From assembly GCA_947652605.1 (NCBI GenBank), contig OX393580.1, positions 20,170,159-20,234,158 of the forward strand: a DNA stretch of 64,000 nucleotides, written 5' to 3'. Position 1 is the first letter of the stretch; each line of letters opens with the position of its first letter. The notes under the pieces are model-generated. The model worked only from the letters and a program-made list of their open reading frames with translations, was not told the DNA's origin and did no database searches. Positions 12,451 through 59,254 of this stretch are shown here, piece after piece. Source of the DNA: Elmis aenea (taxonomy: Eukaryota; Arthropoda; Insecta; Coleoptera; Elmidae). The translations under genes and the position numbers were made by a program.

Positions 12451-12457
12451 TTCAATT

Positions 12458-35640: not shown

Positions 35641-36393
35641 TTTTTTTTCTTAACTTTTAATTGCTTTAAAAAATTACATCAAATTTTCTTCACGACATTT
35701 AAAAACGAAACTTCTTGTCCTTAATATATTTCACGTCAGAACGTCCTATGTTTTTGACAACTCGCTTAATTGCGACGTTTTTTATTATTTACTTTTAATC
35801 TGACGCGTTAAAAGTTGGTAGTTAAACATTTTAGAGTAGAAAAATTTTAATTAGTGGTGTGTAAATATCGGTAAAGCCATTACGTCTGGAATTACAAGTT
35901 CTGGCGGTGAAGTAACAAATAAAAATGTAGTGTACGTGACTTACTGCATATCTTTTTTGTAAATACGGTTTAAAATATCAGGGTATCAGGGAGTCTATGT
36001 TAAGAGTGACTTATGCCGAATTTACATTGGTATAGTAGCTCATGCAAGTTACTAAATCAAGTAAGGAAATTTAGGTACTTCCAACGTGTAGACAGTTTCG
36101 TTTAGTATTAGTACAAATAAACAATTTAGTAATTTTTTGAGTAGCTAAAGTAAATAGAAATCATTTTTTGTTACTTGAGGACGATATTCCATTTTCTGCC
36201 AATTACTAAATAATTTCAAAAAATTTGGTGTAGACCACATATACAGTGTAGACAAAAAGTAGCGTAACGGATCAATATCTCGTATTGTGACAACTGTACA
36301 ACTTTTAAATAAAATACTCACAAGGGAAGGTCACGATACGTTGTCGCTAGAATTTGATTTCGGCTGTGTTTATTACATCAAGGGCATCAAAAC
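35641..36393. other. intergenic left of the duplicated block
   Basis: No supported exon. ACAGTGTAGACAAAAAGTAG at about 36243-36262 resembles a transposon terminus found inverted at about 43900-43928. The last eight bases, ATCAAAAC (36386-36393), occupy the TSD position of the following hAT element but do not match its right-hand TSD. Confidence 0.5.
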
Positions 36394-37309
36394 CAGGCCC
36401 GGACTGGCCATCTGGCAGTTCGGGCAAATGCCCGAAGGGCCGGTGCCCGAATGGGCCGGTCCAAGCTACGGGCTTAATAAGTTTGGCGCTGAAGTAAAAG
36501 GAGCGCAAAAATTATGATAAAAGGTGGCATTATAACATTTGCCCGTATAATACGGGCCGTATTCAATCTTAACGTTTTTCAGGGGCTCCACAATACGCAA
36601 TAGCGTCGTATGTTTGATCGCGCCACTCGTGTTTCAGAAATAGTCCCGATATTATCCATAACCTGACGCATAGCTATAGATGGCGTGTGCATGTGTATAT
36701 AGTAGTTTCATAATCTACTTATTTTATAAAACACATTGTTTATTAAACAGATTCATAATAAATATATTGATGCGAGTTTATTAAGTCTGCGTAAGTGGTT
36801 ACCATATAAAGCTTTTAGTGGGCCATAGAAGTTGATGCATGGTCTAAAATTAATTTTAAGATGGAAAAATATTATTAAAAATTCATGACACTAGATTTTA
36901 GAGATTTTAGAAATATTCGCAAGAGTAAAGTGCCCGTATTTTAGGTTTTCAAAAAACTTTTTTTGAAACTTTTTTAAAATTCTTAAAATACTAGCACTTT
37001 ACTCTTGCAAATATTTCTAAAATCGCTAAAATCTAGTGTCATATGAATTTTTATTGAATTTTTTTGAAACTTAAAATTAGTTTTAGACCATGCACCAACT
37101 TTTCCTAGGGATAACATTTTTTGAGAAACCTACAATAAAAATCTTTTCCATTTGTTGCAGACTTTTTGAATGTTAAAATTACTTCAAAAATAAAAATTTA
37201 AATTTTAACGTCAAATTTTACATTTTGGTTTTATTATTAATTCTAAATAATCTTTTCCCATGAGTTTTTTTTTGTGTATAGGTAAGTTGTTTTCAATAAG
37301 GGCACATTA

Positions 37310-38232
37310 GGGGAGAGTGGCCTAAAATGATCCCTGCGGGCAAAACGATCCCCACACTTTAATTTTATTACTAATCCTTCTATCTATAAATTTAACACGT
37401 CACTATCACTAATTGAGTCACTTGTGTCAGACTATCAAATGTGAGGGTAAAATATCGCAAGTAGATAGTAAATAAGAAAAAGTGGTTTTTATACGTCGTG
37501 ATTTAAGGTAAGGCCATAGCAGCTATACTAAAAATTGCTTAAAAGTCATAGGGATGCTAAATTGTAATATATTTTTCATAAATACATCCTTTTGTCTATA
37601 ATTCGACGTGTTTGTGAAAAATTCAGGCACGTCCAACATGTTGCTAAAATGACTTGAGTCGAATTATCCACTTTCGGGCAAAATGATCCCCAACACAAAG
37701 TCTAGCAAAAGGCAAAGACTGCAAAAGAAAGAAGGAAGACGAAGATGAGAGAGTGAGTCAGAGGATGTAGAATGCCTTATTTGTTTTGAAACATTTCTAA
37801 GATCTTCTGCGGGAGAAGGATAGGCACAGTGTGTTAAGTGCAAGCGTTAGGCACATGATGAGTGTGCTGAACTTGAGGACGATGACTGCGATCCATACAC
37901 CTGTGATTACTGTGCTGTTGCCCCTTAAGTTCGTAGAAGGGTGTTTGAGTAGTGTTTTATGTAGTAGTCTACTAAATCATTCTGTGATCATTTTACCCTA
38001 CACTGGGGATCATTTTGCCCTACCTGTGAGGGTAAAATGAACCTTTTGCATAGTTTCCTATTATATTAAAAAATATATATTATTTGCTTTTCTCAGACAA
38101 AATGGGATATATGACTTCTGTAGTCCAATGTTTACAGGATTTAATAAAAAAAAGTCTCGATTATTTATGAATCTTTTTCTACATTTTACAACTACTTTGG
38201 TGTTAGGGGGATCATTTTAGGCCACTCTCCCC
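37310..38232 (+). mobile_element. pogo-like element, unit A copy (empty of LTR element)
   Basis: The TIRs are GGGGAGAGTGGCCTAAAATG and its inverted copy, flanked by TA (37308-37309, 38233-38234). The motif GGGGATCATTTT, in either orientation, recurs at about 37326, 37343, 37680, 37988 and 38004 besides the ends. A transposase C-terminal remnant lies at 37761-37928. The uninterrupted site GTAGATAGTAAATA at about 37461-37474 is where the LTR element sits in unit B. Confidence 0.85.
37761..37928 (+). pseudogene. pogo-type transposase C-terminal zinc-finger remnant
   Basis: In frame: EDVECLICFETF, SSAGEG, a TAG stop, AQCVKCKR, another TAG, then AHDECAELEDDD and YTCDYCAVAP before the terminal stop. 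The CxxC...CxxC...H..C...CxxC order is the PHD-like tail found on some insect pogo-type transposases. Both TAG codons sit where tryptophan would be expected (TGG to TAG): G-W-x-x-C and K-W-A-H. I infer this from the family pattern. The copy is dead and lacks the DDE domain. Confidence 0.65.
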
Positions 38233-38696
38233 TACTCTTATGAATATTTCTGATATCGCTAAAATCTAGTGCTGTATGATTATTTTTTTTTTTAAATTTT
38301 ATCTTAAAATTAGTTTGAGGTAATGCACCAACTTTTATCAAGAACTAAAAATTTACAATAAAATTCATGATAAAAAATTATACCATTTCTTGCATACTTT
38401 TTGAATGACGCTGTATAAAGAATATATGTAACGTGAAAAATTAATAAATTAGTTGTGAAACAATAGTCAAGTTTCTTTTAAAAAAATCAAAAACATCAAA
38501 AGTTCTTAGTTTTTTCAATTGAAATCAATTGATTATTGATTTTTTTAAATCAAAATTAAATTTTGACCAACCCTGGCTGTGGGCCTCTATAATCTGAATG
38601 CCCGAGCCGATTTTTTTTCCCAGTCCGTCACTGTTCAAAGCTATCAAAATTTATTTGTGTCCTCCTTTTTTCATTGCTAAAAAGTTGGTCACCTTA

Positions 38697-39532
38697 TTAT
38701 TTTGAGTTTTTATAAGATTCTTAAAAACCATAAAAAATTGTTTGTTGTTTAAATAAAGAAGCAAATTTTAGTCATTACTTAATTTGAAATTTGTATACTG
38801 TACTGTCTACTATATAGAATTCCAAGTTCTTAGAAACTGTCAATAAATAATGAAACTCCTTTTTTTTTTTTATTTAGCACTAAAAAAAAGTATCAATATT
38901 AATATAATAGCTCACATTATAAAGTGTCTGATAATTGTAATGAAGTTATTGTAGTCTTTATTGTGTGTGTCGTATAATACCATGAAGTAATTAGACGCTT
39001 ATTTTTAATTATTATTAATTTTCACCATTAAAACTCTTCCTCTATTATAGTTTTTTTTTTTCATTTTAATCAAAATCGTTAAAGAAATAACTCGCTGATT
39101 TAAAAATTAACATATAATAACAAAAATTAATGAAGACAAATGTCAGATTGACACTCATGGCTACTTATATTTGTAAAATTAATCCAATTTTAAAATATTA
39201 ATTATGAACTCAATATTAAACATTTAAGCTTATTAATGGTCTCAAATGATGCGTAATAAATTTATCTTTCTATTGTTACCATTAATTTTAATATAAATTC
39301 AATTGGGGAGCAGGAATCCGAAAAAACTTAAAACCAATGTTAATTCCCTATGTTCACGGCTGGTGGTTAACACCCGGTATATACATATATATATAATATG
39401 TATAGCAAATTGGTTTTCACAAATTGTGATACTATTCCTGGAATATAAAAATTAATCCTACTTCCTGTCATTAACAAACGTATATCTGCAATTTTTTTTG
39501 TACATACACATATAAAAGGCTGTTGGTATATA
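38697..39532. other. spacer in unit A, nothing recognised
   Basis: Very AT-rich, with no supported exon. The minus-strand ORFs at 39367-39652 overlap the next element's end and have no domain. The same sequence occurs in unit B at 57026-57861. Confidence 0.4.
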
Positions 39533-40792
39533 CAGGGTGTCCCCATTATACACGGCAAAAAAGTATGTGCATATTCCTGAGTGAAAATGATGACCATTTG
39601 TCAAATATTTTGTTATCCGAAAATGCTTCCTTTCAAAGTTAGAGACCTCCAAAGTTGCAAGAAAAAAAATTCAAAAAATCGATTACGTCCTAGCCGTTTA
39701 AGCTAGAGCTATCAAACTTGGCCGAAATGTTTGGGTGTTTCCCATTGACTTTGTGGGATAATTAGAAAGAAAACACGTAATTGGAAGTATGATTTACAGG
39801 CAGGTCATCCGCTTACCATCTTCAGAATTTTTTTCTCTGGGATAAAATAGACAATGTCATTCGTCCATAAGAAAGTACGACTTAAGAGGAAAAAATTCGT
39901 CCCTCTTTGTTTTTTGCTGTAAACGTAGCCGTTTTCGAGAAAATTAGTGCTAAAGATGCATCGACAAACTCTGTTTATACACCTCAAATATTTTTTTTTT
40001 ACTAAACTTAGTTGGCTAATGTCATGCTTGACTTAAGGCTTGTTCATAATAAACTAAGTGAATGTCGGCTAATTCGTTTAGACTCTAAATTGGTGATGAA
40101 ATAAAGGATGATGTGTTACAAGAAGTAAGTTGAGTTACATTCATTTACAAAATAGACCAATAAAAAACTATTAGTAACGATTACGTTTAAAATTATTAGG
40201 TTCAAAATAACCCTAGAGCTTCAACTTCTCAAATTGGTACTACAATAAACATTTCCAAAGATAAAGTATGGAGAGTACTGCATAAAGAAGGCTTTAAACA
40301 CTTTAAAATTCAAGTCACTCATACGCTGCATTTTTTTAAATAAAATATTTGTTTTAGCCATTTTTAACAACAATGGTTTCAAAAAAGTGCCAAGTGTTAT
40401 ACATTTTCGAATTCAGAATAAAATTCTCTACAAACTGGCGTTAAAATCAGAAATAGCGTCCACAAGAAAAAATTGACCTGATGATGGTTTTAAAAAAACG
40501 AAACGTCGCATGGAAAATATAATTGGGGATTCTGATTCCTTGCAAAAAGTGGCCATGAAAAAGTTTTTACAGAAATGAAATTCGACATCAAATGAAAAAG
40601 TTACGGGCAAAAAACAAAAATCCACTTTTTTACTTTTTTCCCTATATCTCAAAAACTAAAAAAGATAAATAAGTTCTGTTTGCGTCAAATTATTAAGCAC
40701 CTGAATATACAACTTTGCCCCAATTTAACCGAAGTCGTAACTCTTACCGTTTACGAGATCCCCATAGTGAGCCGCGAAAAACGAGAACCCTG
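39533..40792 (+). mobile_element. Tc1/mariner-type element, unit A copy
   Basis: The left end is ACAGGGTGTCCCCATTATAC and the right end, read inward, is ACAGGGTTCTCG, each next to TATA. The similarity is limited to the tips, so the boundaries are tentative. At about 40207-40340 the plus strand reads NNPRASTSQIGTTINISKDK and VWRVLHKEGFKHFKIQ, a helix-turn-helix segment of a Tc1/mariner transposase. The right third recurs at 35200-35640. The right end stops directly beside the promoter-like segment at 40801. Confidence 0.55.
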
Positions 40793-40800
40793 TATATATA

Positions 40801-40925
40801 TTTTCGTTGTTGTTTACAGTTTTGTTTTGCAATAATGATTTATGTCTCAAAATTGACGTTGGCATACGACGTGCGTATTTTTCAAAGTAAGCTGTGACTT
40901 TCACAAAATTCGTCTTGCAAAAGCG
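40801..40925 (-). repeat. orphan copy of the saposin gene's 5' flank
   Basis: The segment is closely similar to 45894-46024, the DNA just upstream of the saposin gene's ATG. Shared stretches include GTTGTTGTTTAC and ATACGACGTGCGTATTTTTC. The similarity stops where the ATG should lie (TAT instead of CAT on the plus strand), exactly beside the transposon ending at 40792. It is probably the 5' relic of an older gene copy whose exons are gone. Confidence 0.65.
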
Positions 40926-41121
40926 GTGTGAACTGAACCCAGTGCGTTCGGCTTCAATTTGTTAACCTACTACTCAAGGCTAACAACTAAACATAAACTA
41001 TGTGTATGTACAATGATTGCAAACATTTAAATAACAACATTTAAACAGGAAATGTAATAATCGGTTTAGATGATCAATTGTACAAAATATTTGTTACATA
41101 TCGTTTCTATCATTACGTACA

Positions 41122-44100
41122 TCAAAAATGCAAGAACTTAACTGTAATAATTTTGGTCCAAACCAAAAACAAAATTAAGTTAAAAAAATTAAAGTTCTTT
41201 TCTGACGAGTTCGAGGACGAGTCAGGAGTAGTTGCAGTTTCTGGTTTTGTTTCTTCTTCCATCTTACAATCCTCACCAAAGAAAATATGGAATTTGGTGC
41301 ACACATCGACACCTATTTTGGAAGAAAAAAAGGTGAACTAATAATGTATTGTCATTTTGGTCATAAGCAGCAAACTAAATCGACAAAATAAAACAACTTC
41401 CAACACAACACCAACCAAAATTTGTTAATACAGTAAGAGCTATCCCCTTAGAACCGATGATAAGTAATCAGTAGCGCAAATCAACCGGTTCTAAATAAAC
41501 ACTGATAAAATATTGTGATTTAAAAAAAAATTAATACTAAACAAACAAAAATTTCTATTCGAGAAAACCTTGAGAAGCTAAAAACATTATATAATAATTG
41601 CTTCTCGCCATTTTTTTTTTTTTGTTCACGTTTAATTAATATTTAAAGTCGTGTTACTTCGTTACAATTAAGTTACAATTGAACAAATATTAATCAAGTC
41701 ACCGTAAACAAACGTAATTCCGGTAATTTATCAGTTACTCAAAGTTTCGACGTAGTTTTTAGTCTAATAATAGAAAAATAATTAACATGTACGTCAAAAA
41801 TTATAGCTATCATCTCCATTGGTGCGTCCACGTGCCCTTGGCTTAAAACCTCAATGCAGGCTATTATCACATAATTTTGCACGTACTTACCCCAGTGTTT
41901 CATCACTGTTACATTTGGAACGATTGTGTTGAGGAGTTGATCGCACATCTTTTCTAAGCCTGCCATGCCGCACAAACTAGCAACCTTTTCTTTAATCTTG
42001 TCTGTAAAATTTTGTTCACCACGATCTTGTCTTATGAAATCAGCAACTAAAATAATACGTTAACATAAGTTTTAATAAATTTGTATTTAAAAGCACTACG
42101 CATACAAATCGATAATTGTAAATATTAACTAGAAGTGCACCAAGAAAACCTACAAATAAGAATTTAAAGACATATTTAACAAAGTTATTTGCAGATATCG
42201 TTACGATCTTAATATATATGTGTAAATACTAAAATTAATAATAATGTTGTTTAACATTCATGATTGAGCAAAAAAAAAAGTAATTTCCTTGTATAATCAA
42301 CAATGTCTAGGCTGTAAGCTGGCCCTGTAGATTACACACATAACTAACACAACATGTCTTCTTAGGAGAAATTAATGGCAATTTCGACCTTACTGTATGC
42401 ATTTCTACAATATTCCAGTTTTATTGTTACATTTATCACATAAATAATCTGATTTAATTTAAATATACATCAAAGCCGTGACTTGGTAAAGTAAATGGAG
42501 CTGAAAGTATGAAAGTTGCTATGATTAATATGCTGCAGATATTAATATTAAATCGATTGAACTGCACCCATTTTCTATTTTTATTTAATCTGAAGCGTGG
42601 CTGAATGGCTCTTTTGTAAGATACTGAGATAATTGTAAGGCCTTGTTAATAGTTTTACTCAAGACACTGCTGAATCCAATACCGTTGTGATTGTGCACTA
42701 ACTTAAATATAAAATCATCTTTAAATATTTTTAGCAAGTATGACCAAGAGATCTTAAAAAATGTTTTTTATTTAGTACGTCGAATTTTTGTAGTTCGTTG
42801 CAAATGTTTAAAATCCATAAAAGTTTTTATTTAATTATTGCACTTTTTATAGTTTTAAAGCAATTTACCTATCCATTTTGACGAAGGTACATATTGTCGT
42901 GCCTCGTGCTAGTTAAACCTGTGTACAAATTTAAATGAGGGTAATTTTGCAAGATAGTATATAATTCTTTTGATCTTAAGTTTGCTACATTTTGGAAATT
43001 TTTACATTAAGTTTAGCTTAACTCTATACCTTATAGTTAATATGTAGTTAAAAACTGAACAATATCAAAAGATTGCTCCTGGGATAACTGCACAAGCATC
43101 ATAATGTCATTCTGACGTTTGCTTCGCTTAAATCAATGAATTATACAGAGTGTGAATCACGGTCTACTACACAGGTTGGGAGACTCCCATATAAAAACGA
43201 CTGAGGCCGGTAACTAGTTCCGTAAATTATCCCACAGATGGCGTTATGTCTAAGAACCGTTCGCCATAAATTATTGCTAGATGGCGATACGTCTAAGAAC
43301 CGGTTCGTGTACAATATTTTGACATAGTCAGCGATATTTAAAGGCTTTCGCTTAAAACATTCGCAAAATTCGAATGTAATCAATCAGGGGATGTATATTC
43401 AAATGTTTTTATCGAATTTTTAAGTCAGTTTTGTTCAAAATAAGATCCCACCTAGTGCTAGCTCAAGTTCTTAGACTTATTGCCATCTAACGGATATTTA
43501 TGGCGAATGGTTCTTAGACGTATCGTCATCTAGCGGAAATTTATGTCGAAAAGTTCCTGATTTTTTGACAGGCTTCCCAACCTGTGTAGTAGACCGTGGT
43601 GTGAATACAATTGTGACAATTTAAACGAGATTCACATTAAAATTTGTAATAAAAGGACATACACATATTTAATTTTACCTGTTTAGATTTGGAATTGCAT
43701 GGAACAATTTTGTAAAAGTTTTCTTAGACGTGGACGCTAGATATTAGCACTAATAAAGTCGTAAGAAATTGCATATTGAACAACTTTTTGTAGCCTAATA
43801 CTTAACTATCCTTCAGTCAATAGAGTTGTACGTTGTACCTAATGAGAGTTGTAATAAGAGTTTTGATTTAGAATTGTTCAAAAAATAACGCTACGTTAAA
43901 ATTTTACACCAATTTGTCTACACTGTCTTTATGGAACAAGTTACTTTAACGGACTTTGTCAGAAATTGATAAAATTAAGTAGACTAATAAAACTGGACGT
44001 CCTGTGCTCAAATATGTTAAAATTATTTGGCGCTCTCAATTACTTAGCATAAAAATTCATTTTAAAAGTTCCGTTTGACAGTTAGGTTAGGTTTTTTCAT

Positions 44101-45893
44101 TCGAATTTTCTCATGTTAAGATAGCTAAAATATCTTTGTAAAGTGTACGAATAATGATTATAAGGCATGAATGAAACTATATTTGTATCGATTTTGTGTT
44201 AAAATAAGCTAAAAATAACGTAAATCTTATAACAAACCCAAGTTCACAACTGTCATTTTTTGCAGTCTTGAATTACAATTTCCACCTTTCTTGACCTTTC
44301 TGAGATCGTAATGTGGACTCATTTAGATCTATAAGGATCAGATCAGTTTCAGTTGGAACTAAAATTTTAATTTTAAGCGACCATTGATTTATTATTTTAA
44401 CCATTAACTTGTAAATCGATTCGATTATCACGTTCATTAAAGCAACATCTAGCACTTCAGTTTTTACCCAATAATCAACTGTGTGTACGCGTGTGTGTGT
44501 ATGTTCCAGACGTTAAAATTGAAAAACAGTGTTGCGCACAGCTGCACGTAATCTTATTTTAGCGTTCCCCATTAATCAGCTTTAAAAAAAACTCTTTCCG
44601 ACCTCTAGCCTGACCCTCTGATGACAGTAAACAGAATGCAGATGGAATAGTGTTGCACACAGCTGCACGTAATCTTATTTTAGCGTTCCCCATTAATCAG
44701 CTTAAAAAAAAAACTCTTTCCGACCTCTAACCTGACCCTCTGATGACAGTAAACAGAAAGCAGATGGAATAGTGTTGCGCACAGCTGCACGTCATCTTAT
44801 TTTAGCGTTTCCCATTATTCAGCTACAAAAAAAATACTTTTTCCGACCTCTAACCTGACCCTCCGATGAAAGTAAACACGCTGCCCATGCAATAATTTTG
44901 TCCATTACCAAATAACATGTTGCAGTTGCTGCTTTTTTTTAATTGCACACAGTTTGGCTGAAAATTATTTATTGGAACTAATATTTTTCATTTTATTGCT
45001 AAGATATAAGTTCACAGTTGGTTATTTTGTATAAACTGATGTGTTAGATCTTACTTTAGTTAACGTGATAATCGAATAACCGGCATTATTAACTACCACT
45101 CCCAAATTACAATTTAATGGTTAAAATAATAAATTAATAGTCGCTTAAAATTTAAATTTTAGTTCCAACTGAAACTGATCTGATCCTTATAGATCTAAAT
45201 GAGTCCACCTTACGATCTCAGAAAAGTCAAGAAAGGTGGAAATACAATTTCAAGACGGCAAAAAATGACAGTTGTGAACTTGGGTATGTTATAAGATTTA
45301 CGTTATTTTTAGCTTATTTTAACACAAAATCGATACAAATATAGTTTCATTTATACCTTATAATCAAATTCGTACACTTTACAAAGATATTTTAGCTATC
45401 CTAACATGAGAAAATTCGAATGAAAAAACCTAACCTAAGTGTCAAACGGAACTTTTAAAATGAATTTTTACGCTAAGTAATTGAGAGCGCCAAATAATTT
45501 TAACATATTTGAGCTCAGGACGTCCAGTTTTATAAGTCTCTATAATTTTATCAATTTCTGACAAAGTCCGTTAAAGTAAACTTAAACTTTATTATAAACA
45601 TAAATTGGGGGTCTTACCTGTTTTACAAGTTTTGCACGCCGCCTCCTGTATACCATTATCACGAGCTGATTCACTACTCAAAATAGGAGTTTTATCAGGG
45701 GTTATTTTGTAATTCCACTGGTCTTCAAAACTTTGAATTACAGGATTAGCATCTAAAATAAAATCAAAGTAAAAAATTCGCGCTTTCATTTTTACTTTGA
45801 GTTGGTGTACTTACCTACGACTAATAATAAACTATTAATCACAATTAAAATTTTAACAGTCATTAGAACTTTATTTCTGTTCAAATAACCCAT
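41122..45893 (-). CDS. secreted single saposin-B-domain protein, 4 exons (unit A)
   Basis: Exons in transcript order are 45815-45893, 45618-45752, 41891-42046 and 41122-41312. Introns are 62 bp, about 3.57 kb and 578 bp, all GT-AG and all phase 1. The CDS is 561 bp, giving 186 aa. Residues 9-26 are hydrophobic (signal peptide; Met11 would give a more compact one). The saposin-B domain spans Cys66 to Cys139 with cysteines at 66, 69, 97, 106, 128 and 139, the family's six-cysteine spacing, and includes VADFIRQD and KIKEKVASLCG. N-glycosylation motifs lie at N84, N116 and N158. An acidic, Ser-rich linker (140-163) leads to a hydrophobic tail (164-186), perhaps a membrane or GPI signal. Saposin-B folds bind or disturb lipids; the exact role here is unknown. 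Start: the ATG at 45893, followed by a clean first donor. The structure is predicted from splice sites only. Confidence 0.85.
42047..43150. other. intron 2 of the saposin gene, 3'-side part
   Basis: No exon or repeat end recognised in this part of the intron. The acceptor for exon 3 is at 42047-42050 (TTAG on the minus strand). Confidence 0.5.
43158..43600. mobile_element. MITE in intron 2 (unit A)
   Basis: The termini CACGGTCTACTACACAGGTT and its inverted copy CCACGGTCTACTACACAGGTT (about 43574-43600) bracket a roughly 440-bp element. The interior also contains inverted GATGGCGATACGTCTAAGAACC-type blocks. A TSD was not resolved. The superfamily is undetermined. The minus-strand ORF at 43141-43383 spans it and is not a gene. 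Confidence 0.65.
43942..45578. mobile_element. fold-back element in intron 2 (unit A)
   Basis: Inverted arms of about 480 bp (43942-44420 and 45090-45578) mirror each other base by base with few differences, from TACTTTAACGGACTTTGTCA at the tip to ATTATTTTAACCATTAA inward. The loop of about 670 bp holds a three-unit minisatellite. There is no transposase, and the TSD is not clear. The element ends 39 bp from the donor of exon 2 (45617), so it lies right beside coding sequence. Confidence 0.8.
44528..44880. repeat. 121-bp minisatellite, three units (unit A)
   Basis: Units start at 44528, 44649 and 44771 with AGTGTTGCGCACAGCTGCAC or a close variant and contain CTTTCCGACCTCTA. Periods are 121 and 122 bp; the third unit is the most diverged. 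It sits in the loop of the fold-back element. Confidence 0.9.
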
Positions 45894-46024
45894 TTTGGTT
45901 GTTGTTTACAATTTTGTTTTGGAATAATAATTTGTTTCAAAATTGACGTTAGCATACGACGTGCGTATTTTTCAAAGTGCGCTGTGGCTGTCTTTAACAA
46001 AATTCGTCTTGCAAATAAACTACT
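45894..46024 (-). promoter_or_regulatory. 5' flank / promoter region of the saposin gene (unit A)
   Basis: This is the DNA immediately upstream of the ATG. It is inferred to hold the 5' UTR and core promoter because it is the only part of the flank conserved in the orphan copy at 40801-40925. No convincing TATA box or initiator could be fixed by eye. Confidence 0.45.
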
Positions 46025-46534
46025 GGCGAGTTCGGAGTAAATAAATATGATTTTCAAACATTTTGAATGGTTGTAAAAACATGTCTAGAAAGTTTCTCAA
46101 CAAAATAAAGATAGATTTGCAGTACTAAGAATATGTTTAGCCTTTTTATAAACTTTCGAGACATATGCACAACTATTAAATAATTGCCCAAAGAAAAAAA
46201 CAACCTATACCTTCAGACCATTTTCAAAAATTTCGAAAGACTATAAAAATATTTTTAAAGAGTTTTCGAACGAAATATTGATAGATTAGCGTTGCCAAGA
46301 GCGTGTTTAACATTTTGTTATAATTTTTGGAGACGATAGCACAATTTATCTACAAGTTTTAGATAAATTGTGCTATTAATTTATCTACAAGTTTTTACCC
46401 CTAAAAACGTGCCAGGCTATACTCTTGGAGAATTTTTAAAAAATTTTAACAGCTATAACAATTTTTTAGAGAGTTTTTGAACAAAATAGATCAGTTAAGT
46501 TCTAAGTTGCATTTATTTTTTTCATGAACTTAAT
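46025..46534. other. gene-flanking spacer with a short perfect hairpin
   Basis: Nothing coding. At 46336-46352 and 46360-46376 a 17-bp inverted repeat, ATAGCACAATTTATCTA and its complement, encloses 7 nt. Part of the motif (AATTTATCTACAAG) is repeated directly after it. Confidence 0.6.
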
Positions 46535-46672
46535 GGTGCCTGTACACCTGAGAGTAAAGTACTCTCGAGAGTAGCGTCGCCAAGGATACAGCCCCTGAGA
46601 GTAACTCGCGATTGGCTGTATCCTTGGCGACGCTACTCTCGAGAGTACTTTACTCTCAGGTGTACAGGCACC
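46535..46672. repeat. 138-bp near-perfect palindromic MITE, copy 2
   Basis: Same family and length as 3617-3754. Here the arms pair even better: GGTGCCTGTACACCTGAGAG at the left matches CTCTCAGGTGTACAGGCACC at the right, with GTAGCGTCGCCAAGGATACA pairing inside. It lies about 650 bp upstream of the saposin gene. Confidence 0.85.
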
Positions 46673-48329
46673 ATAAGAGACAATTGCACAACTTTTGAAA
46701 TTTCACCCAAAAAATTGCCGTACTATACATGTGGACATTTTCAAAAAATTTAAACACCTATAAAAATATTTTTTATTATTTTCTGAACAAAATCATATGG
46801 ATTTTGGACGTTTATTAAAAGTAAATGTGAATTGCTTATTCATAAGGTGACCAACCGTCCTCCTTTAGGGAGGACAGTCCTTTTGAGAATCCTGTCCTTC
46901 CTCGAAAAGTGTCCTCCTACATGTCCTCCTTTTCGATACATTGACAAAAAGTATTCGTTCAGTGGAAAAGTACTTATTTAAATAATAATTTAATAGGCAT
47001 GTAAGCATATTTACATGTTACAAATGTCTTTATTATGCGCATTTTTCATATGATAGTGCAGGTATGGCAAACAGGATTTGATCAGTGTGCCAAAATAAGA
47101 TAAAATTTAATCCCCGTGCCAGTACCTAACCTAACCTACCTACCAGAAACGCAGAAACAACCGTTAGTTACTTCGTTCTTCGTTCAGTATTGCCAACGTC
47201 ATGATTGCATGTGTCACTAAATACATACATAAATTTCATACACGAAGGTATTCAAAGCCAGGCCCGGACTGGCCATCTGGCAGTTCGGGCAAATGCCCGA
47301 AGGGCCGGTGCCCGAATGGGCCGGTCCAAGCTACGGGCTTAATAAGTTTGGCGCTGAAGTAAAAGGAGCGCAAAAATTATGATAAAAGGTGGCATTATAA
47401 CATTTGCCCGTATAATACGGGCCGTATTCAATCTTAACGTTTTTCAGGGGCTCCACAATACGCAATAGCGTCGTATGTTTGATCGCGCCACTCGTGTTTC
47501 AGAAATAGTCCCGATATTATCCGAAACCTGACGCATAGCTATAGATGGCGTGTGCATGTGTATATAGTAGTTTCATAATCTACTTATTTTATAAAACACA
47601 TTGTTTATTAAACAGATTCATAATAAATATATTGATGCGAGTTTATTAAGTCTGCGTAAGTGGTTACCATATAAAGCTTTTAGTGGGCCATAGAAGTTGA
47701 TGCATGGTCTAAAATTAATTTTAAGATGGAAAAATATTATTAAAAATTCATGACACTAGATTTTAGAGATTTTAGAAATATTCGCAAGAGTAAAGTGCCC
47801 GTATTTTAGGTTTTCAAAAAACTTTTTTTGAAACTTTTTTAAAATTCTTAAAATACTAGCACTTTACTCTTGCAAATATTTCTAAAATCGCTAAAATCTA
47901 GTGTCATATGAATTTTTATTGAATTTTTTTGAAACTTAAAATTAGTTTTAGACCATGCACCAACTTTTCCTAGGGATAACATTTTTTGAGAAACCTACAA
48001 TAAAAATCTTTTCCATTTGTTGCAGACTTTTTGAATGTTAAAATTACTTCAAAAATAAAAATTTAAATTTTAACGTCAAATTTTACATTTTGGTTTTATT
48101 ATTAATTCTAAATAATCTTTTCCCATGAGTTTTTTTTTGTGTATAGGTAAGTTGTTTTCAATAAGGGCACATTAGGGGAGAGTGGCCTAAAATGATCCCT
48201 GCGGGCAAAACGATCCCCACACTTTAATTTTATTACTAATCCTTCTATCTATAAATTTAACACGTCACTATCACTAATTGAGTCACTTGTGTCAGACTAT
48301 CAAATGTGAGGGTAAAATATCGCAAGTAG

Positions 48330-48333
48330 ATAG
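48330..48333. repeat. 4-bp target-site duplication of the LTR element (left)
   Basis: ATAG here and at 55794-55797. Unit A has a single ATAG at the equivalent position, the preserved empty site. Confidence 0.95.
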
Positions 48334-48964
48334 TGTCACATCAGTATTTTTCCAAATTTATTTTATTCGATTACTTTTATAAGTTCATTACCTTCGCTTA
48401 ATCGTTCGATGATGTACTATAACAGCTCAGCGTAATTCATGCAATTCTGCAAGCGCGACATTCCTGACGCTAGGATTACGCTGAGTTGCCGACCCAAGCG
48501 TGGTAACGCACTCCGGAAATAATACGTCGATCTACAGGCTTGTTGAGTCAGGGAATAAATCAATATAAATAGATCAATTAAATTCTGAGAGGGCAGTCTA
48601 GTTTGGGACTCAAATTGCGAAGTGCCGTTCGCGACCAAAAGAAAAGGCCTCTCAGAATGGAGAAGTCCCTGACCCAGCAAGCGCTGATAACGATTGTATT
48701 ATTGTAAGTAATTTATATATTTAACGTTGCTTCACTTTAAGTTCCGATTTATGTTTTGTATCCTAGTGTATCCTAGTTGTGCTTTAATTTAATAAACGTT
48801 TTAAGTTTACTTATAGGATTTCATTGCATATTCTCTTGAATGTTCCATATTCTCTTACAGATCAGTGCTATTCCATTTCAGATCCGGTCACCTTGCTCCG
48901 TGTTTAATTGACATTGATTATTATGAATAATCAATTAATAATAGTTACGAAGCCAAACGTAACA
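48334..48964 (+). repeat. 5' LTR
   Basis: Starts TGTCACATCAG and ends CCAAACGTAACA. TATAAAT at 48564-48570 is a candidate TATA element and AATAAA at 48791-48796 a polyadenylation signal. Nested inverted repeats are seen: CTCAGCGTAAT (48426-48436) with ATTACGCTGAG (48475-48485), GTCAGGGA (48547-48554) with TCCCTGAC (48666-48673), and ATTCTGAGAGG (48582-48592) with CCTCTCAGAAT (48648-48658). Confidence 0.95.
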
Positions 48965-48966
48965 CG

Positions 48967-48984
48967 TGGTGGAGGCAAGCCGGC
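48967..48984 (+). other. candidate primer-binding site
   Basis: TGGTGGAGGCAAGCCGGC begins two bases after the LTR. A TGG start fits pairing with the CCA end of a tRNA. I cannot assign the tRNA from memory. Confidence 0.45.
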
Positions 48985-49241
48985 TCTATTTTTGGAAATT
49001 CTTCGTAATTTCCTCTTTATTCATTTGGTTTTAAATGCATGTATCTTTATGTGTAACTTTCATAATTTTTTCTTTTAGTTTTGGAACATTATTTCATGTG
49101 TGTTTTACTAATTCTTTTTTTGTTTGTTAATTGTTAATTTTTTAGGGGAGAACAATAATTTCATGTATTTTGTTATAAAATACTGTTTTAGGTAACATTT
49201 GACAGTTATTGTTAAAGGGCCGCTTATGTAATTATTATATT

Positions 49242-50624
49242 ATGCACACCAGGTCAAAAAGTACTGGCAGTTCTATAATCAAAGTTACTCTAACTAACGA
49301 TAGTACATCACCCTCGTTCAGGCCTCAGAACAACAGCACCGAAATACATAGTGAAAACACACCAGGTTGCAGCACTGAAAATCCGAGGACGCCAAGTAGT
49401 GAATTTACAAATTCGAACGGTTTTGAATCCGGAAGAAAATTAACAAGAACCCCTCCAACAAGTCCTATTCCTAGCACCGGCAATCGCGACATAATTACTG
49501 ATCCAGCAACAGATATTCTCATTGTTGCTAACGCTACAGACACAAGAATCCGCAAGATGGACGCTAATACGACAATCCAAGGAGCCGTAGAAGCTGGAAG
49601 ATCAGCTGCAATACCAAAATTCATCTCACCTCCCACATTTGATCCATGCTGTACCAACCCAGTGACGTTTATCAGGAGCTATGAGCGGACAGCTATAGCA
49701 AACGGCTGGGGTAACGTATATAAGATTACGTATTTGGGATCATTTTTAGAAAATGCGGGAAATGTGTGGTATACGAATTATATTAGCAAAGCAGAAAACG
49801 CAAATAATAATTGGGAACAAATTGTAAAGGACTTTTTAACCGAATTTGGAGGAGAAAATCCATTAAGAAAAATGAAGTTCAAGTTAAACACCAGGCGTCA
49901 AGAGGAACACGAAGACATAAAAAGGTATTTTTACGATCTACAAGCACTGGCGTACGAAGTGGACCCCAACACAAGTGCAGAAGCCTTCCGAGAGCGATTT
50001 GAGAACGGACTACATCCCAGGTACTATGATACTTACTACCTTATGAGCAGTGCCAATATGTCTATGGCAGATCTCAAATCTCTGGTACTGAAGCTTAGTG
50101 AACTTAGAGAACGTTCAGAGATGGCGCAGCTAACTCTACAAACATCATTCCTCACCTTGGGCAACAATGGACCAGCCTACCCTGGAAATAGACCAAATAA
50201 CCCCAGAACAAATTCCAACGATTACCGAAGAAACGGAAATCGATGGCGTAATCAACGGTACAGCAGCCCCAGGCTACCACGCACCCGAAGCCGCGATGGG
50301 CGACCTAGGTGTTATAACTGTAACAGAGTTGGACATCAGGCCAATTCCTGCTACCAGGAGTACCGGTCCAACTATCCTCAAGAATGGTCAAATAGAAGAG
50401 ACGCTACACCCCCCAGACCATATCCACGAGATCAAGGCCGCCCAAGGAGTGCGGAAAGAAGAGAATATCGATCTAATAGCCCTCAACCACAGTGGTCCAA
50501 CAGAAGAGATGCCACGCCTACAAGAAACCCACGGGAACTTGACCGTCCAGGAAGTATAAAAAGAAGAGTGTCATTTACACCTAACGAGATGACACCCCCA
50601 AACGCCCCAGGGCAACACGAATAA
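49242..50624 (+). CDS. gag: Gag of the Ty3/Gypsy element
   Basis: 460 aa from the first ATG, at 49242; the open frame reaches further upstream only through a TTG at 49209. A Ser/Thr/Pro-rich N-terminus precedes a capsid-like region (about 49640-50140; NNWEQIVKDFLTEFGG, RRQEEHEDIKRYFYDL). An Arg/Asn-rich nucleocapsid follows with one zinc knuckle, CYNCNRVGHQANSC (CX2CX4HX4C, 50310-50351). Gag forms the particle and packages the RNA. The frame is uninterrupted. Its 3' end overlaps pol by about 40 bases and includes a -1 frameshift signal. Confidence 0.93.
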   Translation: MHTRSKSTGSSIIKVTLTNDSTSPSFRPQNNSTEIHSENTPGCSTENPRTPSSEFTNSNGFESGRKLTRTPPTSPIPSTGNRDIITDPATDILIVANATDTRIRKMDANTTIQGAVEAGRSAAIPKFISPPTFDPCCTNPVTFIRSYERTAIANGWGNVYKITYLGSFLENAGNVWYTNYISKAENANNNWEQIVKDFLTEFGGENPLRKMKFKLNTRRQEEHEDIKRYFYDLQALAYEVDPNTSAEAFRERFENGLHPRYYDTYYLMSSANMSMADLKSLVLKLSELRERSEMAQLTLQTSFLTLGNNGPAYPGNRPNNPRTNSNDYRRNGNRWRNQRYSSPRLPRTRSRDGRPRCYNCNRVGHQANSCYQEYRSNYPQEWSNRRDATPPRPYPRDQGRPRSAERREYRSNSPQPQWSNRRDATPTRNPRELDRPGSIKRRVSFTPNEMTPPNAPGQHE

Positions 50625-53600
50625 AGAAGCCGGATGTTGCCCCCTCCCTCATCCCCCAGACAAACGGCTGTCAAATCTTAACGGTAGAAGGTACAATTAA
50701 TCATAGGTTAACAGATATAGTTTTAGACACTGGCGCCACTAAAAATGTCGTAAGCATGGACTACGTCAAGAATATAAAAGAATTAAGCAAACCTGAGATG
50801 CTACAGACCGCTGGTGGTCATCGAGTCACAGTCCTAGGAGAAGCCCATTTGCAGCTAACAATTGGTGGAATGTATAGTAACTGCAAGGCGTTGGTGATAG
50901 AAAGGTCTCCAAAACCGCTCATCCTAGGCACCCAGTTTTTAAAAGACCACAACGCAGTCATTGATTTTGCTAAAGGTATGCTAGAACTTAGCACCACGTC
51001 CAAAAAAGTTACCCTTAACATTTGGAAAAATGGCCCATATGATAACTGTTACCTAGCGATGGAGCCAACCAATGCCGAAAAAAGTGAAGTCGAAGAATAC
51101 CACAAGCTAATGCTGAAGAAAGACTACATACTTACCAAGGATGTGGAAATCTCCGTCTCATTGATAACCAAAGATACAACCTCCAAGAACACAACTTGGG
51201 AGTTTTTGCCCAATGAAAAATTTTTGGTCCCTAGGGGGCTCGCATTTAGCAGTAAACCGATCCCAAAGGAAGATGGCCTGGAAGTAAAATTAATCTCTAA
51301 ATCAGTGGTACCAAAAGTATTGTTCGCAGGTACAGCACTAGGCTATCTACACCCTCTACCCACAACAAATGAGAACGACGAGATCTTGTGCACAATGAAT
51401 TCGACTAACCCCAAGAAGATAGATCATCAAATAAACAAGGAATTACCAACCCAACAGCATGAACAGCTTAAAGAATTGTTAAATAAGTACGAGGACGTCT
51501 TTGCCGTCACCACTCACGAACTTGGCCTCACCAACGTCACAGAACACGACATTGATGTTCAAAGGGCAGCCCCTGTCAAATCTAGACCATATAAAATCTC
51601 CCACAAAGAAAGAGAACTGGTGAGTGATCAAATAAACGAAATGTTGCAGCACAACATTATAAGACCTAGCCAGTCACCATGGGCCAGTCCAGTGGTACTT
51701 GTCAAAAAAAAGGATAAAGGTACAAGGTTCTGCGTGGACTACAGAAAACTCAACGAAGTTACTAAAAAATCTAGCTACAACAGTTCCAACATAGAAGACA
51801 TGCTTACATACCTCGGAGGAGCAAAATTCTTTTCAGTGCTGGATCTGCAGCAAAGCTATTACCAGGTACCTATCCGAGAAGAATGCAAGGAGTATACCGC
51901 TTTTCTTGCTCAAGGACACGGACTGTACGAGTTCAACGTACTTCCATTTGGCCTATGTAACGCGCCAGCTACCTTCCAGCATCTTGCAGACCAGGTATTC
52001 CAAGGTATGAAATGGTTGGAAGTCCTTGTCTACATGGACGACATCATCGTATTTTCCAACACCTTTGAGGAACATCTTCAACGTCTTCAAAAGGTGCTCC
52101 AAAGACTTCGCTCGGCAGGACTAACCCTAAAGCCCAGTAAATGTACCTATGCTCAGACGGAAGTCAAACTCCTTGGGTTCGTGGTCAATACAGAAGGCAT
52201 AAAGTTGGACGAAGAAAAACTGGAAGCTATCCAGAAGTTTCCTACACCCAAGACAGTGAAACAAATCCAAAGTTTTACTGGTCTTTGTAATTACTATCGG
52301 CGACACATAAATCAGTTTTCAGGAATTGCAAGACCCCTTTTCGAGGCTACAAAGAAAGAAACTGGATTCATATGGGGACCTGAACAGCAGGAGGCGTTTG
52401 AGACTCTAAAACAGAAGATGCTAACCGCACCCGTATTGGCCCACTTTAACCCACACAAAGGATGTGAACTCCGTACAGATGCCTGTACCTCGGGACTAGG
52501 AGCCGTATTACTGCAGGAAGCCAACGATGGAACAATGCATCCAGTCGCCTACGCTAGTCGCAGCCTCACCAAGGCCGAAAAGAACTATACCATTTCAGAA
52601 CTGGAAGCTCTTGCCGCAATCTGGAGTCTGCAGTACCTTCGCCATTTAATTTATGGGCGTCCTGTTAAGATCGTCACAGACCATCATGCCTTGTGTTGGT
52701 TAAAAACACTAAAAGACGTCTCAGGAAGACTTGCGAGATGGGCAATAAAACTTTCCGAGTTCGACTATGGCATAGTGCACAAGAGTGGAAGAACCCACAA
52801 AGATGCTGACTGTTTATCCAGAAACCCTGTACGAGAAGGTACCCCAGCTGACGAAGTAGAAGCTAACGAAATCCCTACGTACCTGCTGGACGAAATTAAT
52901 ATATGCAAACTACAAGAGGATGGCCCGTCGATTAAAATTATTAAAAAAGCCATTCAAGATCCACAAAATCCCACAATTACCATTGGAACTGCGAGAAGAG
53001 CAAAAAATTACCGAATCATAGAAGATATCGTTTATAAGAAAAGTTCCCATCCTTACGGTCTGCCCAAACTGCTCGTGATCCCTCAATCCTTGGTGCCAGA
53101 AATCCTGTTCTCCCATCACAGTGAGCCAACTTCAGGTCACTTAGGCATCACCAAGACACTGAAAAAAGTCAAGGACCGGTACTATTGGGACGGACTTCAA
53201 AAAGACGTAGAGAAATTCGTCAAGGGGTGTCCAGACTGCCAAGCTAGAAAAGGACGAACCAACGTAAAACCCGCTGGTCTCTTGCAACCTATCCGCATCG
53301 CCACCCCATTTGAGAAAATTGGTATTGATCTATTAGGCCCCTTCAGAAAAAGCAAGAATGGAAAAACTATGATCGTCGTAGCAACGGACTACGCCACAAG
53401 ATGGGTTGAAGCCAAAGCCCTTCCGAATGGTAAAGCTGGACCGGTGGCCCAATTCATCTTAGAAAATATTATCACCAGGCACGGCGTACCAAAACATATT
53501 CTTAGCGACAGAGGCAAGGCGTTTCAATCCCAGTTGGTGACTGAGCTGCTCAAAATCATGGGCGTGGTAAGTCAATTTACCACTGCCTACCACCCGATGT

Positions 53601-54223
53601 GTAATGGCCTGACAGAGAGGTGTAATAAAACCATCACCGACATGCTGTCCATGTACACTAATACAGAGCAAACCGATTGGGACCTCTACCTTCCTCATGT
53701 GACGTTCGCCTACAACACCTCAGAACAGGATACCACTAGGTTCTCCCCCTTCATGTTAGTGTATGGCAGGCAACCGATCCTACCACCCGAAACCACCCTG
53801 ATGCCCAGTGAAACTACAACGTCGGTAGATGACATCAGGGAGCGCGCCCTCGCCGTTCGAGCACAGGCAGCTGAAAGGATCCACAAAAAACAAGACAGCG
53901 ACAAGATTAGATTCGACTCCAAGCACAGACATCTCGAATTTGAGCCAGGAGACCAAGTAAAAGTATTCACTCCCGTTAGGAAAGTAGGACGTAGCGAAAA
54001 ACTCATGTTAAGATGGTTCGGCCCGTACTACATTACCAAGAAAATTGGAGAAGTGGACTATATGGTTCAAAAGGGCCCTACTGGCAAATCAAAACAAGAA
54101 GTTATTCACGTGAGTCGAATTCTGCCGTACCACGATCCCTGGTCACCCCAACTCGCCCAAACCAACGTCACACCAGAGTACGAGGACACAAACAACACTG
54201 GACTAGAAACTTTGAACAATTAG
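50585..54223 (+). CDS. pol: Pol of the Ty3/Gypsy element (PR-RT-RH-IN)
   Basis: The frame opens at 50585, in -1 relative to gag, and stays open to the stop at 54221-54223. The first ATG (50756) lies after the protease active site, so translation must enter by frameshift, not at that ATG. The protease motif LDTGA is at 50723-50737. RT runs about 51560-52300 with VYMDDI (YMDD at 52031-52042). RNase H starts with the aspartate of RTDACTSG at 52478. Integrase has an HHCC finger (HHSEP...GCPDCQ, about 53115-53245) and catalytic D at 53327, D at 53507 and E at 53615; 35 residues separate the last two. No chromodomain is seen. All catalytic residues are present. Confidence 0.95.
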   Translation, partial: RDDTPKRPRATRIKKPDVAPSLIPQTNGCQILTVEGTINHRLTDIVLDTGATKNVVSMDYVKNIKELSKPEMLQTAGGHRVTVLGEAHLQLTIGGMYSNCKALVIERSPKPLILGTQFLKDHNAVIDFAKGMLELSTTSKKVTLNIWKNGPYDNCYLAMEPTNAEKSEVEEYHKLMLKKDYILTKDVEISVSLITKDTTSKNTTWEFLPNEKFLVPRGLAFSSKPIPKEDGLEVKLISKSVVPKVLFAGTALGYLHPLPTTNENDEILCTMNSTNPKKIDHQINKELPTQQHEQLKELLNKYEDVFAVTTHELGLTNVTEHDIDVQRAAPVKSRPYKISHKERELVSDQINEMLQHNIIRPSQSPWASPVVLVKKKDKGTRFCVDYRKLNEVTKKSSYNSSNIEDMLTYLGGAKFFSVLDLQQSYYQVPIREECKEYTAFLAQGHGLYEFNVLPFGLCNAPATFQHLADQVFQGMKWLEVLVYMDDIIVFSNTFEEHLQRLQKVLQRLRSAGLTLKPSKCTYAQTEVKLLGFVVNTEGIKLDEEKLEAIQKFPTPKTVKQIQSFTGLCNYYRRHINQFSGIARPLFEATKKETGFIWGPEQQEAFETLKQKMLTAPVLAHFNPHKGCELRTDACTSGLGAVLLQEANDGTMHPVAYASRSLTKAEKNYTISELEALAAIWSLQYLRHLIYGRPVKIVTDHHALCWLKTLKDVSGRLARWAIKLSEFDYGIVHKSGRTHKDADCLSRNPVREGTPADEVEANEIPTYLLDEINICKLQEDGPSIKIIKKAIQDPQNPTITIGTARRAKNYRIIEDIVYKKSSHPYGLPKLLVIPQSLVPEILFSHHSEPTSGHLGITKTLKKVKDRYYWDGLQKDVEKFVKGCPDCQARKGRTNVKPAGLLQPIRIATPFEKIGIDLLGPFRKSKNGKTMIVVATDYATRWVEAKALPNGKAGPVAQFILENIITRHGVPKHILSDRGKAFQSQLVTELLKIMGVVSQFTTAYHPMCNGLTERCNKTITDMLSMYTNTEQTDWDLYLPHVTFAYNTSEQDTTRFSPFMLVYGRQPILPPETTLMPSETTTSVDDIRERALAVRAQAAERIHKKQDSDKIRFDSKHRHLEFEPGDQVKVFTPVRKVGRSEKLMLRWFGPYYITKKIGEVDYMVQKGPTGKSKQEVIHVSRILPYHDPWSPQLAQTNVTPEYEDTNNTGLETLNN
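50597..50669 (+). promoter_or_regulatory. programmed -1 ribosomal frameshift signal, gag to pol
   Basis: The heptamer CCCAAAC (50597-50603) is in the gag phase C CCA AAC, within the only stretch where both frames are open (50585-50624). After a 6-nt spacer, GGGCAACA (50610-50617) pairs perfectly with TGTTGCCC (50635-50642). Inside that loop AGCCG (50628-50632) can pair with CGGCT (50665-50669), giving an H-type pseudoknot. Slippery site, spacing and structure all fit the known -1 signal. Confidence 0.8.
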
Positions 54224-55162
54224 TTAAGTGCTATTAAGTGTTAATTAAGTGTCAGTGGCGCGAGTTAAAGACTAGTTTTGGAAGAAGAAAAAATTAATTT
54301 TTTTTTGACTTATGTGTGTGGAAAAAAACATTTACTAGGTTAAGATAGGTTAGGATCTCTTTTTTTTTCATATATGTTTATAATTTCTATTTGTGTATAA
54401 CTTTCAGGGCAAGCAGTATACAGTTTCTTTTCTTTTTCCTGGTAAGCATGATTCTTACTAAACTTATTTGTTGCAAGATCCAAGGTGAATACATTTAGAA
54501 GTACCAGTCACCAGGTTACACGTTACTGGGAACATCTTCGAGAATGGAGACGGTTTAAAAGACGTCCCGAGCTACTAGCATAATGCACACAGAGAGCAGC
54601 GGTATCAAAACGTAGACGACCAAGACGGCCTTCTGTCCATGCCTCATGGTAAATGGTTTAATATGGTGAAGGCTGGATCGGATTATGTAAAAGAAACATA
54701 ATGCCCACGGTGGGTCCACATGCGGAATCACTCTCTTAGTCCGTGATGCCTGCAAGAGAGTGAGAGCCAGCTTCCGCAGCGTGCCGATTTTTTCTTGTTT
54801 AGGCAGTAGGCAAAATAAGAGGCAAAGGCATCACCACGTAGTTGGGACAGAAGAACCTAGTCGTCAAATAAGGCCTACAGTATGAGCAAATTAATTGCTA
54901 ACGTATTATTGTTTTTTCTCTAAATTTTTTTTTTAACTTGCAACCGTAATAAGTTTATTTTTATTTCATTTAAGTTTCACGTAAGGTTTACTGCTTGTTC
55001 AGATATTGCGATAGGTTAGTCTCTAGGTCAAGTAATTCTATATTCTAATGTTATTGTTTTGTTACAGATAAGGGAATGCGTTACCAAGCATATTCACTTC
55101 ATTGTCCGCGTTTTTTTTTCAAAATTAAAGCTGTGGGTCCAGCTTTTCGAAAGAAGGTGTTA
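54224..55162 (+). other. 3' untranslated part of the LTR element; no env
   Basis: About 940 bases without an ORF of use on the plus strand; the minus-strand ORF at 54555-54755 is chance. It ends with a short purine run, GAAAGAAGG (55149-55157), five bases before the 3' LTR, a weak polypurine-tract candidate. Confidence 0.75.
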
Positions 55163-55793
55163 TGTCACATCAGTATTTTTCCAAATTTATTTTATTCGAT
55201 TACTTTTATAAGTTCATTACCTTCGCTTAATCGTTCGATGATGTACTATAACAGCTCAGCGTAATTCATGCAATTCTGCAAGCGCGACATTCCTGACGCT
55301 AGGATTACGCTGAGTTGCCGACCCAAGCGTGGTAACGCACTCCGGAAATAATACGTCGATCTACAGGCTTGTTGAGTCAGGGAATAAATCAATATAAATA
55401 GATCAATTAAATTCTGAGAGGGCAGTCTAGTTTGGGACTCAAATTGCGAAGTGCCGTTCGCGACCAAAAGAAAAGGCCTCTCAGAATGGAGAAGTCCCTG
55501 ACCCAGCAAGCGCTGATAACGATTGTATTATTGTAAGTAATTTATATATTTAACGTTGCTTCACTTTAAGTTCCGATTTATGTTTTGTATCCTAGTGTAT
55601 CCTAGTTGTGCTTTAATTTAATAAACGTTTTAAGTTTACTTATAGGATTTCATTGCATATTCTCTTGAATGTTCCATATTCTCTTACAGATCAGTGCTAT
55701 TCCATTTCAGATCCGGTCACCTTGCTCCGTGTTTAATTGACATTGATTATTATGAATAATCAATTAATAATAGTTACGAAGCCAAACGTAACA
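55163..55793 (+). repeat. 3' LTR
   Basis: Appears identical to the 5' LTR over its 631 bp by line-by-line comparison. The polyadenylation signal AATAAA is at 55620-55625. It is followed by the right TSD, ATAG (55794-55797). The minus-strand ORF present in both LTRs (55246-55509) is not a gene. Confidence 0.95.
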
Positions 55794-56089
55794 ATAGTAA
55801 ATAAGAAAAAGTGGTTTTTATACGTCGTGATTTAAGGTAAGGCCATAGCAGCTATACTAAAAATTGCTTAAAAGTCATAGGGATGCTAAATTGTAATATA
55901 TTTTTCATAAATACATCCTTTTGTCTATAATTCGACGTGTTTGTGAAAAATTCAGGCACGTCCAACATGTTGCTAAAATGACTTGAGTCGAATTATCCAC
56001 TTTCGGGCAAAATGATCCCCAACACAAAGTCTAGCAAAAGGCAAAGACTGCAAAAGAAAGAAGGAAGACGAAGATGAGAGAGTGAGTCA

Positions 56090-56257
56090 GAGGATGTAGA
56101 ATGCCTTATTTGTTTTGAAACATTTCTAAGATCTTCTGCGGGAGAAGGATAGGCACAGTGTGTTAAGTGCAAGCGTTAGGCACATGATGAGTGTGCTGAA
56201 CTTGAGGACGATGACTGCGATCCATACACCTGTGATTACTGTGCTGTTGCCCCTTAA
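56090..56257 (+). pseudogene. pogo-type zinc-finger remnant (unit B)
   Basis: Counterpart of 37761-37928, with the same two in-frame TAG codons and the CxxC pairs. Confidence 0.65.
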
Positions 56258-59121: not shown

Positions 59122-59129
59122 TATATATA

Positions 59130-59254
59130 TTTTCGTTGTTGTTTACAGTTTTGTTTTGCAATAATGATTTATGTCTCAAAATTGACGTTGGCATACGACG
59201 TGCGTATTTTTCAAAGTAAGCTGTGACTTTCACAAAATTCGTCTTGCAAAAGCG
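59130..59254 (-). repeat. orphan 5' flank copy (unit B)
   Basis: Counterpart of 40801-40925. Its presence in both units shows the orphan is older than the block duplication. Confidence 0.65.

Follow-up and report, generated by a model that had tools for sequence, protein, structure and literature searches.

Organization of the locus

The sequence analysed here, called the window, is a stretch of 64,000 nucleotides of Elmis aenea (C5:20,170,159-20,234,158). It was compared with a genome of 516 Mb in 302 contigs, and the counts from whole-genome searches are those among the best 40 candidates scored. The right part of the window holds the beginning of a tandem array, array 1, which was followed into the stretches to the right: it consists of five hAT copies (A to E) and four spacers, over 75,127 bp (C5:20,206,552-20,281,678). 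The copies C, D and E lie beyond the window, at positions 65445, 83631 and 101817 of the window scale. Spacers B, C and D are repeats of spacer A, and the similarity stops at the right end of hAT E. The exact copy number depends on the assembly; the picture of two units given in the preliminary description is too small, since the array runs past the window. The features of array 1 are collected in Table 1.

Table 1. Features of array 1 and of its left border (window positions)
Feature	Position	Strand	Remarks
Left piece of target repeat T	36311..36393	+	palindromic dispersed repeat that holds array 1
Outer left target-site duplication, ATCAAAAC	36386..36393	+	partner at window-scale 111521-111528
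hAT copy A	36394..38633	+	non-autonomous, 2240 bp, nested MITE inside, without LTR element
Nested TIR element (MITE) in hAT	37308..38234	.	27-bp perfect inverted repeat; common to the array-1 hATs
Inner (donor) duplication, TTCAAAGC	38634..38641	+	right of hAT A
Spacer U of unit A	38642..47250	+	gene, preceded by the right half and followed by the left half of the host TIR element
Predicted secreted-protein gene	41125..45893	-	four exons, own splice model; signal-peptide-like start
CTGGCGAG	46023..46030	+	uninterrupted in the window; site of E2 insertion, with 8-bp duplication, in array 2
Palindromic MITE	46534..46673	.	in spacer A; absent from spacers B-D
Host TIR element, left half	46842..47258	+	ends in TTCAAAGC (47251-47258)
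hAT copy B	47259..56962	+	9704 bp with the LTR element that splits it
Ty3/gypsy LTR retrotransposon in hAT B	48334..55793	+	gag/pol domains
TTCAAAGC and spacer of unit B	56963..64000	+	cut by the window end; runs on to hAT C at window-scale 65445

The termini of hAT A are CAGGCCCGGACTGG and CAGTCCGTCACTG, and the terminal inverted repeats (TIRs) of the family, CAGGCCCGGACTGG / CAGTGACGGACTGG, are short and start with CAGG. Target duplications of 8 bp and short TIRs starting with CAGG are marks of the hAT superfamily, to which the element that bounds array 1 presumably belongs on these grounds. Elsewhere in the genome, the duplications of the family are perfect over 8 bp in nine of the ten copies read, and in the tenth the duplication is shifted by one base. 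The element is a dispersed repeat, with 23 copies outside the L-hAT-S context (L and S being the sequences to the left and to the right of the hAT) among the best 40 candidates scored. The nested MITE is found in 3 of 19 sampled copies outside this context, and in a fourth, unsampled copy (C2:46.85 Mb) the alignment reaches into it.

Other transposon remains lie to the left of the array. The ORF at 29690-30163 (+) is a candidate piece of hAT transposase, which we take it to resemble, and it matches no Pfam family at E<=0.001. Three ORF fragments of reverse transcriptase, of the non-LTR type by appearance, are at 13301-13852 (-), 21898-22545 (+) and 27808-28770 (-); RVT_1 was detected in all three frames searched, the third match being below the Pfam cut-off.

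The spacer and its predicted gene

The order of the elements in spacer U is identical in the four spacers of array 1 and in the units of array 2 (see below) that were read. The host TIR element, whose halves are separated by the hAT, has its ends ATAAGGTGACCAAC at 46842 and GTTGGTCACCTTAT at 38684 and 57013. A copy elsewhere that lacks the hAT (L047) joins GAAGGTATTCAAAGC to TATCAAAATTT with a single TTCAAAGC, and hAT B has TTCAAAGC on both sides. The preliminary description is thus correct in that hAT B has perfect duplications and sits inside an older TIR element, both halves of which flank it. A further copy, at C4:37,983,197-37,983,610 (L046), differs in its right flank and has a hAT footprint, TTCAAATCAAAGC, distinct from that of array 2; these features suggest that the host element has itself been mobile.

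The predicted protein has no match at E<=0.001 in a search of a protein collection, and no Pfam family was found, apart from two weak matches below the cut-off for a shorter version. Related DNA is present on C2 and C6, with 75-92% identity. When unit A is compared with a unit of array 2, 20 of the 29 substitutions fall in the 659 bases of the exon model, out of 7,396 bases in total; the gene model was drawn before the differences were counted and the exon limits used for the count were set afterwards, loosely for exon 3. Most of these substitutions fall around 41262-41292 or 45618-45653 in the predicted gene, where they form two tight clusters and alter several residues. They would reflect either diversifying selection or gene conversion, and clustered conversion would look like selection.

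The spacer also contains an inverted repeat (43938-44414 and 45107-45583, arms of ~479 bp with 95% identity) with a short tandem repeat between its arms. A tandem repeat of ~110 bp at C8:29,297,754-29,301,416 has in its unit ~70 bp that are like the 5' region of the cargo gene, and this satellite may have grown from that stretch. The junction which first made the unit tandem was not found in the sequence analysed. Two pairs of similar stretches, 35230-35636 with 40396-40804 and 45892-46015 with 40800-40921, were considered as ends of this junction; they were rejected because the alignment, and further copies of the first pair to the left of the array, correspond to a dispersed repeat beside a shared promoter-like stretch.

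The borders of array 1

The left edge of unit A, placed in the preliminary description at a hAT terminus with mismatched duplications, has this structure at the base level: hAT A is preceded by ATCAAAAC and followed by TTCAAAGC. The identity between units A and B starts at 36387, with a single mismatch inside the 8-bp flank, at 36392. The two units have 3 differences from 36387 to 37469, and 3 from 37465 to the end of the window (45671 in A). The break in unit A is the hAT end, apart from the likeness of the 8-mers ATCAAAAC and TTCAAAGC (6 of 8 positions), a degree of likeness that is reached by 2 of the 45 pairs formed by ten unrelated duplications of the family. The left flanks have TCAAA.C in common at the break, as could be expected if a plain tandem duplication, once larger, had lost its left part by microhomology-mediated deletion (TCAAA); this scenario is hardly credible, for it predicts neither a ATCAAAAC at the right end nor an empty target, both of which are described below.

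On the right of hAT E, ATCAAAAC (C5:20,281,679-20,281,686) is a perfect match to the left flank of hAT A, and the remaining eight hAT flanks in array 1 are all TTCAAAGC. The probability that a given 8-mer of the composition of ATCAAAAC matches by chance is p ~4e-5. Both outer ends of the array are complete elements of the same family in direct orientation (hAT A and hAT E, CAGGCCC...GTCACTG). What appeared in unit A as a mismatched duplication thus reads as one side of a perfect duplication, the other side of which borders hAT E, at the opposite end of the array. It had been proposed that the inner A/B junction is ancestral and the outer left one derived, and indeed the inner hATs keep TTCAAAGC while the array ends in ATCAAAAC. 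A matching ATCAAAAC to the right of the element, which the preliminary description would have taken as evidence against its reading, is present, but at the far end of the array, beyond the window, as the partner of the outer duplication.

The sequence in which array 1 lies, T, gives the state of the target before insertion. When the outer flanks are joined with one ATCAAAAC, they align to the opposite arm of T at 237 of 257 positions, with an uninterrupted junction. The left part of T has 39 other copies among the best 40 scored, and ATCAAAAC is single and uninterrupted in the five copies of T that were read (5/5) and in the other arm of T. Since ATCAAAAC is at both outer ends and the target is contiguous in the other copies read, array 1 as a whole can be regarded as one insertion with its own 8-bp target duplication. 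The mismatched flanks of unit A would then record two events, the old insertion of the hAT (TTCAAAGC) and the insertion of the array (ATCAAAAC).

The matching outer ATCAAAAC and the empty target are not explained by a plain tandem duplication, which the preliminary description had already found inadequate for unit A. Of the three explanations offered there, a rearrangement mediated by hAT ends fits these data and recombination between hAT copies is a rival, discussed below. The third, an assembly misjoin (or haplotypes joined at the repeated hAT), is extremely improbable: the right end has the same 8 bp, so that two separate outer junctions agree on one target, the site is empty in the other arm of T and in 5/5 other copies, and a second array follows the same logic. 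What speaks for it is that the units are only a few bases apart and that repeats of 10-18 kb are hard to assemble, which could make the copy number wrong.

If only the window is considered, alternative transposition using reversed ends would also predict two hATs of which the first has a matching duplication and the second matches on a single side; this process makes a tandem direct duplication beside the donor, as in maize Ac (PMC3744419, in the part that deals with such products). As described there, this process gives no new 8 bp shared by both outer ends. Both ends of array 1 are in a foreign repeat, and this origin is very unlikely.

Order of events within array 1

The two LTRs (631 bp) of the retrotransposon in hAT B have 0 differences, and the element is flanked by a 4-bp duplication, ATAG. 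It is found at the same site, with the same duplication, in hATs B, C, D and E, and is absent from hAT A. Within each copy the two LTRs are identical, and the insert differs from that of B by one base in C, in D and in E. The simplest order would be the insertion of a hAT-U-hAT segment, the entry of the LTR element into one hAT and then the multiplication of the unit that bears it. Position 38571 is C in hATs A and E and A in hATs B, C and D; the base A is probably derived, because the three outside hATs read have C, like hATs A and E.

A second array bounded by another transposon

Array 2 consists of four near-identical copies of the spacer on the minus strand, 0.6 Mb from array 1 (C5:20.89-20.93 Mb). 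It covers 42,791 bp, starts at the left end of a 1583-bp transposon, E2, and ends at the right end of an E2. The inner copies of E2 have CTGGCGAG on both sides. The hAT is gone from array 2, and the footprint TTCAAAG-AA-TCAAAGC is left in four units of four. The same spacer thus occurs at two places, in two circularly permuted forms, the ends of each form being those of the transposon that it carries.

The outer flanks of array 2, ...GAGTTGTTTT and TTGTTTTGTTCC..., overlap by 7 bp (TTGTTTT/TTGTTTT). One base was likely lost at this junction, because E2 makes duplications of 8 bp in 10/10 other copies read. As for array 1, an empty target can be read: among at least 39 other copies of the right flank, the seven that were read (7/7) have GAGTTGTTTTGTTCC uninterrupted. 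These copies are alike over only ~10-20 bases to the left of the junction, and on the side of array 2 a MITE lies near it. The palindromic MITE that interrupts spacer A is also present in the target of array 2, a few bases beyond the edge (C5:20,931,431).

Origin of the arrays

Array 1 was probably founded by the insertion of a composite ("macro") transposon, through macrotransposition from an older tandem array, and then grew in place. In an older L-hAT-S tandem array, the hAT transposase would act on the left end of one hAT together with the right end of its downstream neighbour, and the resulting hAT-U-hAT segment (~13 kb) would move into T. Unit A would start exactly at a hAT end, without the left half of the host element, because the segment was moved by its outer hAT ends. 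After the entry of the LTR element into one hAT, multiplication in place, most likely by unequal exchange, would give five hATs. At 20.9 Mb, a like event would have placed a sister unit between the ends of E2, the unit having already lost its hAT.

A donor-like array with the order L-hAT-S is present on the unplaced contig C118. Its five hATs are in tandem and point the same way; L with TTCAAAGC lies to the left of each hAT and S begins, by coordinates, 67 bases past each right end. Its hATs are at 11089-13331, 41979-44221, 62271-64513, 93553-95795 and 113089-115331, so that the five L-hAT units form a higher-order pattern of ~51 kb by coordinates; three stretches of 3.5 kb that were compared are mutually identical.

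The footprint in 4/4 units of array 2 and TTCAAATCAAAGC on C4 indicate that the hAT was mobile. The event which founded array 1 may even have left the footprint of array 2 as its donor scar. A donor site bearing a matching scar could not be assigned in the sequence covered, which reaches neither the edges of the arrays on C118 and C109 nor the stretch to the left of the 18.56-Mb copy; this counts against macrotransposition.

The main rival to macrotransposition is recombination into a hAT that was already resident in T, with ATCAAAAC on both sides, by means of a U-hAT circle or of break repair templated by the array, followed by expansion. It would leave outer and inner duplications like those from macrotransposition, a single hAT on the circle would be enough, and the hAT is a dispersed repeat, as its 23 copies outside the L-hAT-S context indicate. 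The resident hAT would need ~99.9% identity to the hAT of the unit. hAT A differs from hAT B at 3 positions of 2240 and from hAT E at 2, whereas the closest copy outside the L-hAT-S context, among the best 40 scored, is 98% identical over its length. The outer hATs, near-identical to the inner ones, do not look like diverged foreign copies. The resident hAT would also need the same nested MITE, which 3 of the 19 outside copies sampled have. Both demands would be satisfied if the unit's own hAT had recently jumped into T.

Further observations count against macrotransposition. The private bases 36658-9 of hAT A are in its left part, where resident sequence is expected in the rival scenario; they are found in none of the five hATs read outside the arrays, nor in the copies read on C118, on C109 and at 18.56 Mb. 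These bases may be new, and they are also compatible with a resident hAT. The outer duplication of array 2, 7 bp, is one short of the 8 of the E2 family, and the likeness between the copies of its target is short on the left of the junction. Recombination into a resident element is supported by the fact that the leftmost element is odd in both arrays: hAT A has its two private bases, and the first E2 of array 2 has two single-base indels relative to the second and last copies, which are identical to each other. The rival appears stronger for array 2 than for array 1, because of these two indels and because a near-identical E2 is present on C6; a resident E2 at the target of array 2 is plausible. 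Such recombination would be needed twice, with two families, and we consider it somewhat unlikely for the origin of array 1.

If macrotransposition is the right reading, a cut-and-paste transposon that is copied within the unit of a tandem array makes each pair of adjacent copies a ready-made macrotransposon, and the array becomes mobile. That the unit was relocated in this manner at least twice here, by two unrelated families, is a tentative proposal, which falls a little short of being probable.

Comparison with known systems

The spread of tandem gene arrays to new places is usually credited to recombination or to circular DNA. Both arrays of the gene unit described here have the form of complete insertions: they have transposon ends and target duplications, and their empty sites can be read. 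They would be, provided that the proposed mechanism is true, a testable case, outside the maize examples considered here, of ordinary cut-and-paste transposons that move and seed gene arrays. A literature search retrieved no tandem gene array in an animal that has macrotransposon ends as its borders, which is weak evidence of absence.

In a fungus, a hAT has multiplied the histone H3 gene by transduplication, with 8-bp duplications (PMC6710886); in the part of that work which concerns the element, the gene is inside one transposon, whereas here two whole transposons bracket genomic DNA. Macrotransposition is named as a possible origin of a MITE in the passage of a study on the P elements of Anopheles (PMC1562414).

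The tandem direct duplications made by reversed-ends transposition have a hAT end as their exact starting point, next to a flank without a match, in the examples given in PMC3744419. In contrast, the outer ends of array 1 match each other, which points to an insertion and not to a duplication beside the donor. The Ac macrotransposons of maize consist of DNA between hAT-type termini (5' and 3' ends), make 8-bp duplications and excise with a footprint; those of 10.3 and 28 kb are described in a section of PMC9910405. Like array 1, they contain genomic DNA between hAT-type ends with duplications of 8 bp. They come, according to the same section, from maize genetic stocks, whereas array 1 is a 75-kb array in a reference genome, has ends without transposase and is known from its sequence alone.

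The White Cap (Wc) locus of maize, for which the primary paper is reportedly that of Tan et al. 2017, is the case closest to array 1 among those covered here. At this locus, the insertion of a macrotransposon was followed by tandem duplications that amplified a gene, as summarized in PMC6553525, which is also the course of events proposed for array 1. Its repeats are of 27 kb, with 13 intact copies in the line A188, according to the lines devoted to it in PMC8188678. Unlike in White Cap, the unit here is circularly permuted about the hAT, and one segment is present at two places, between copies of a different transposon family at each. Compared with the maize cases, what differs is that a natural array is permuted and that the pattern recurs with a second transposon family.
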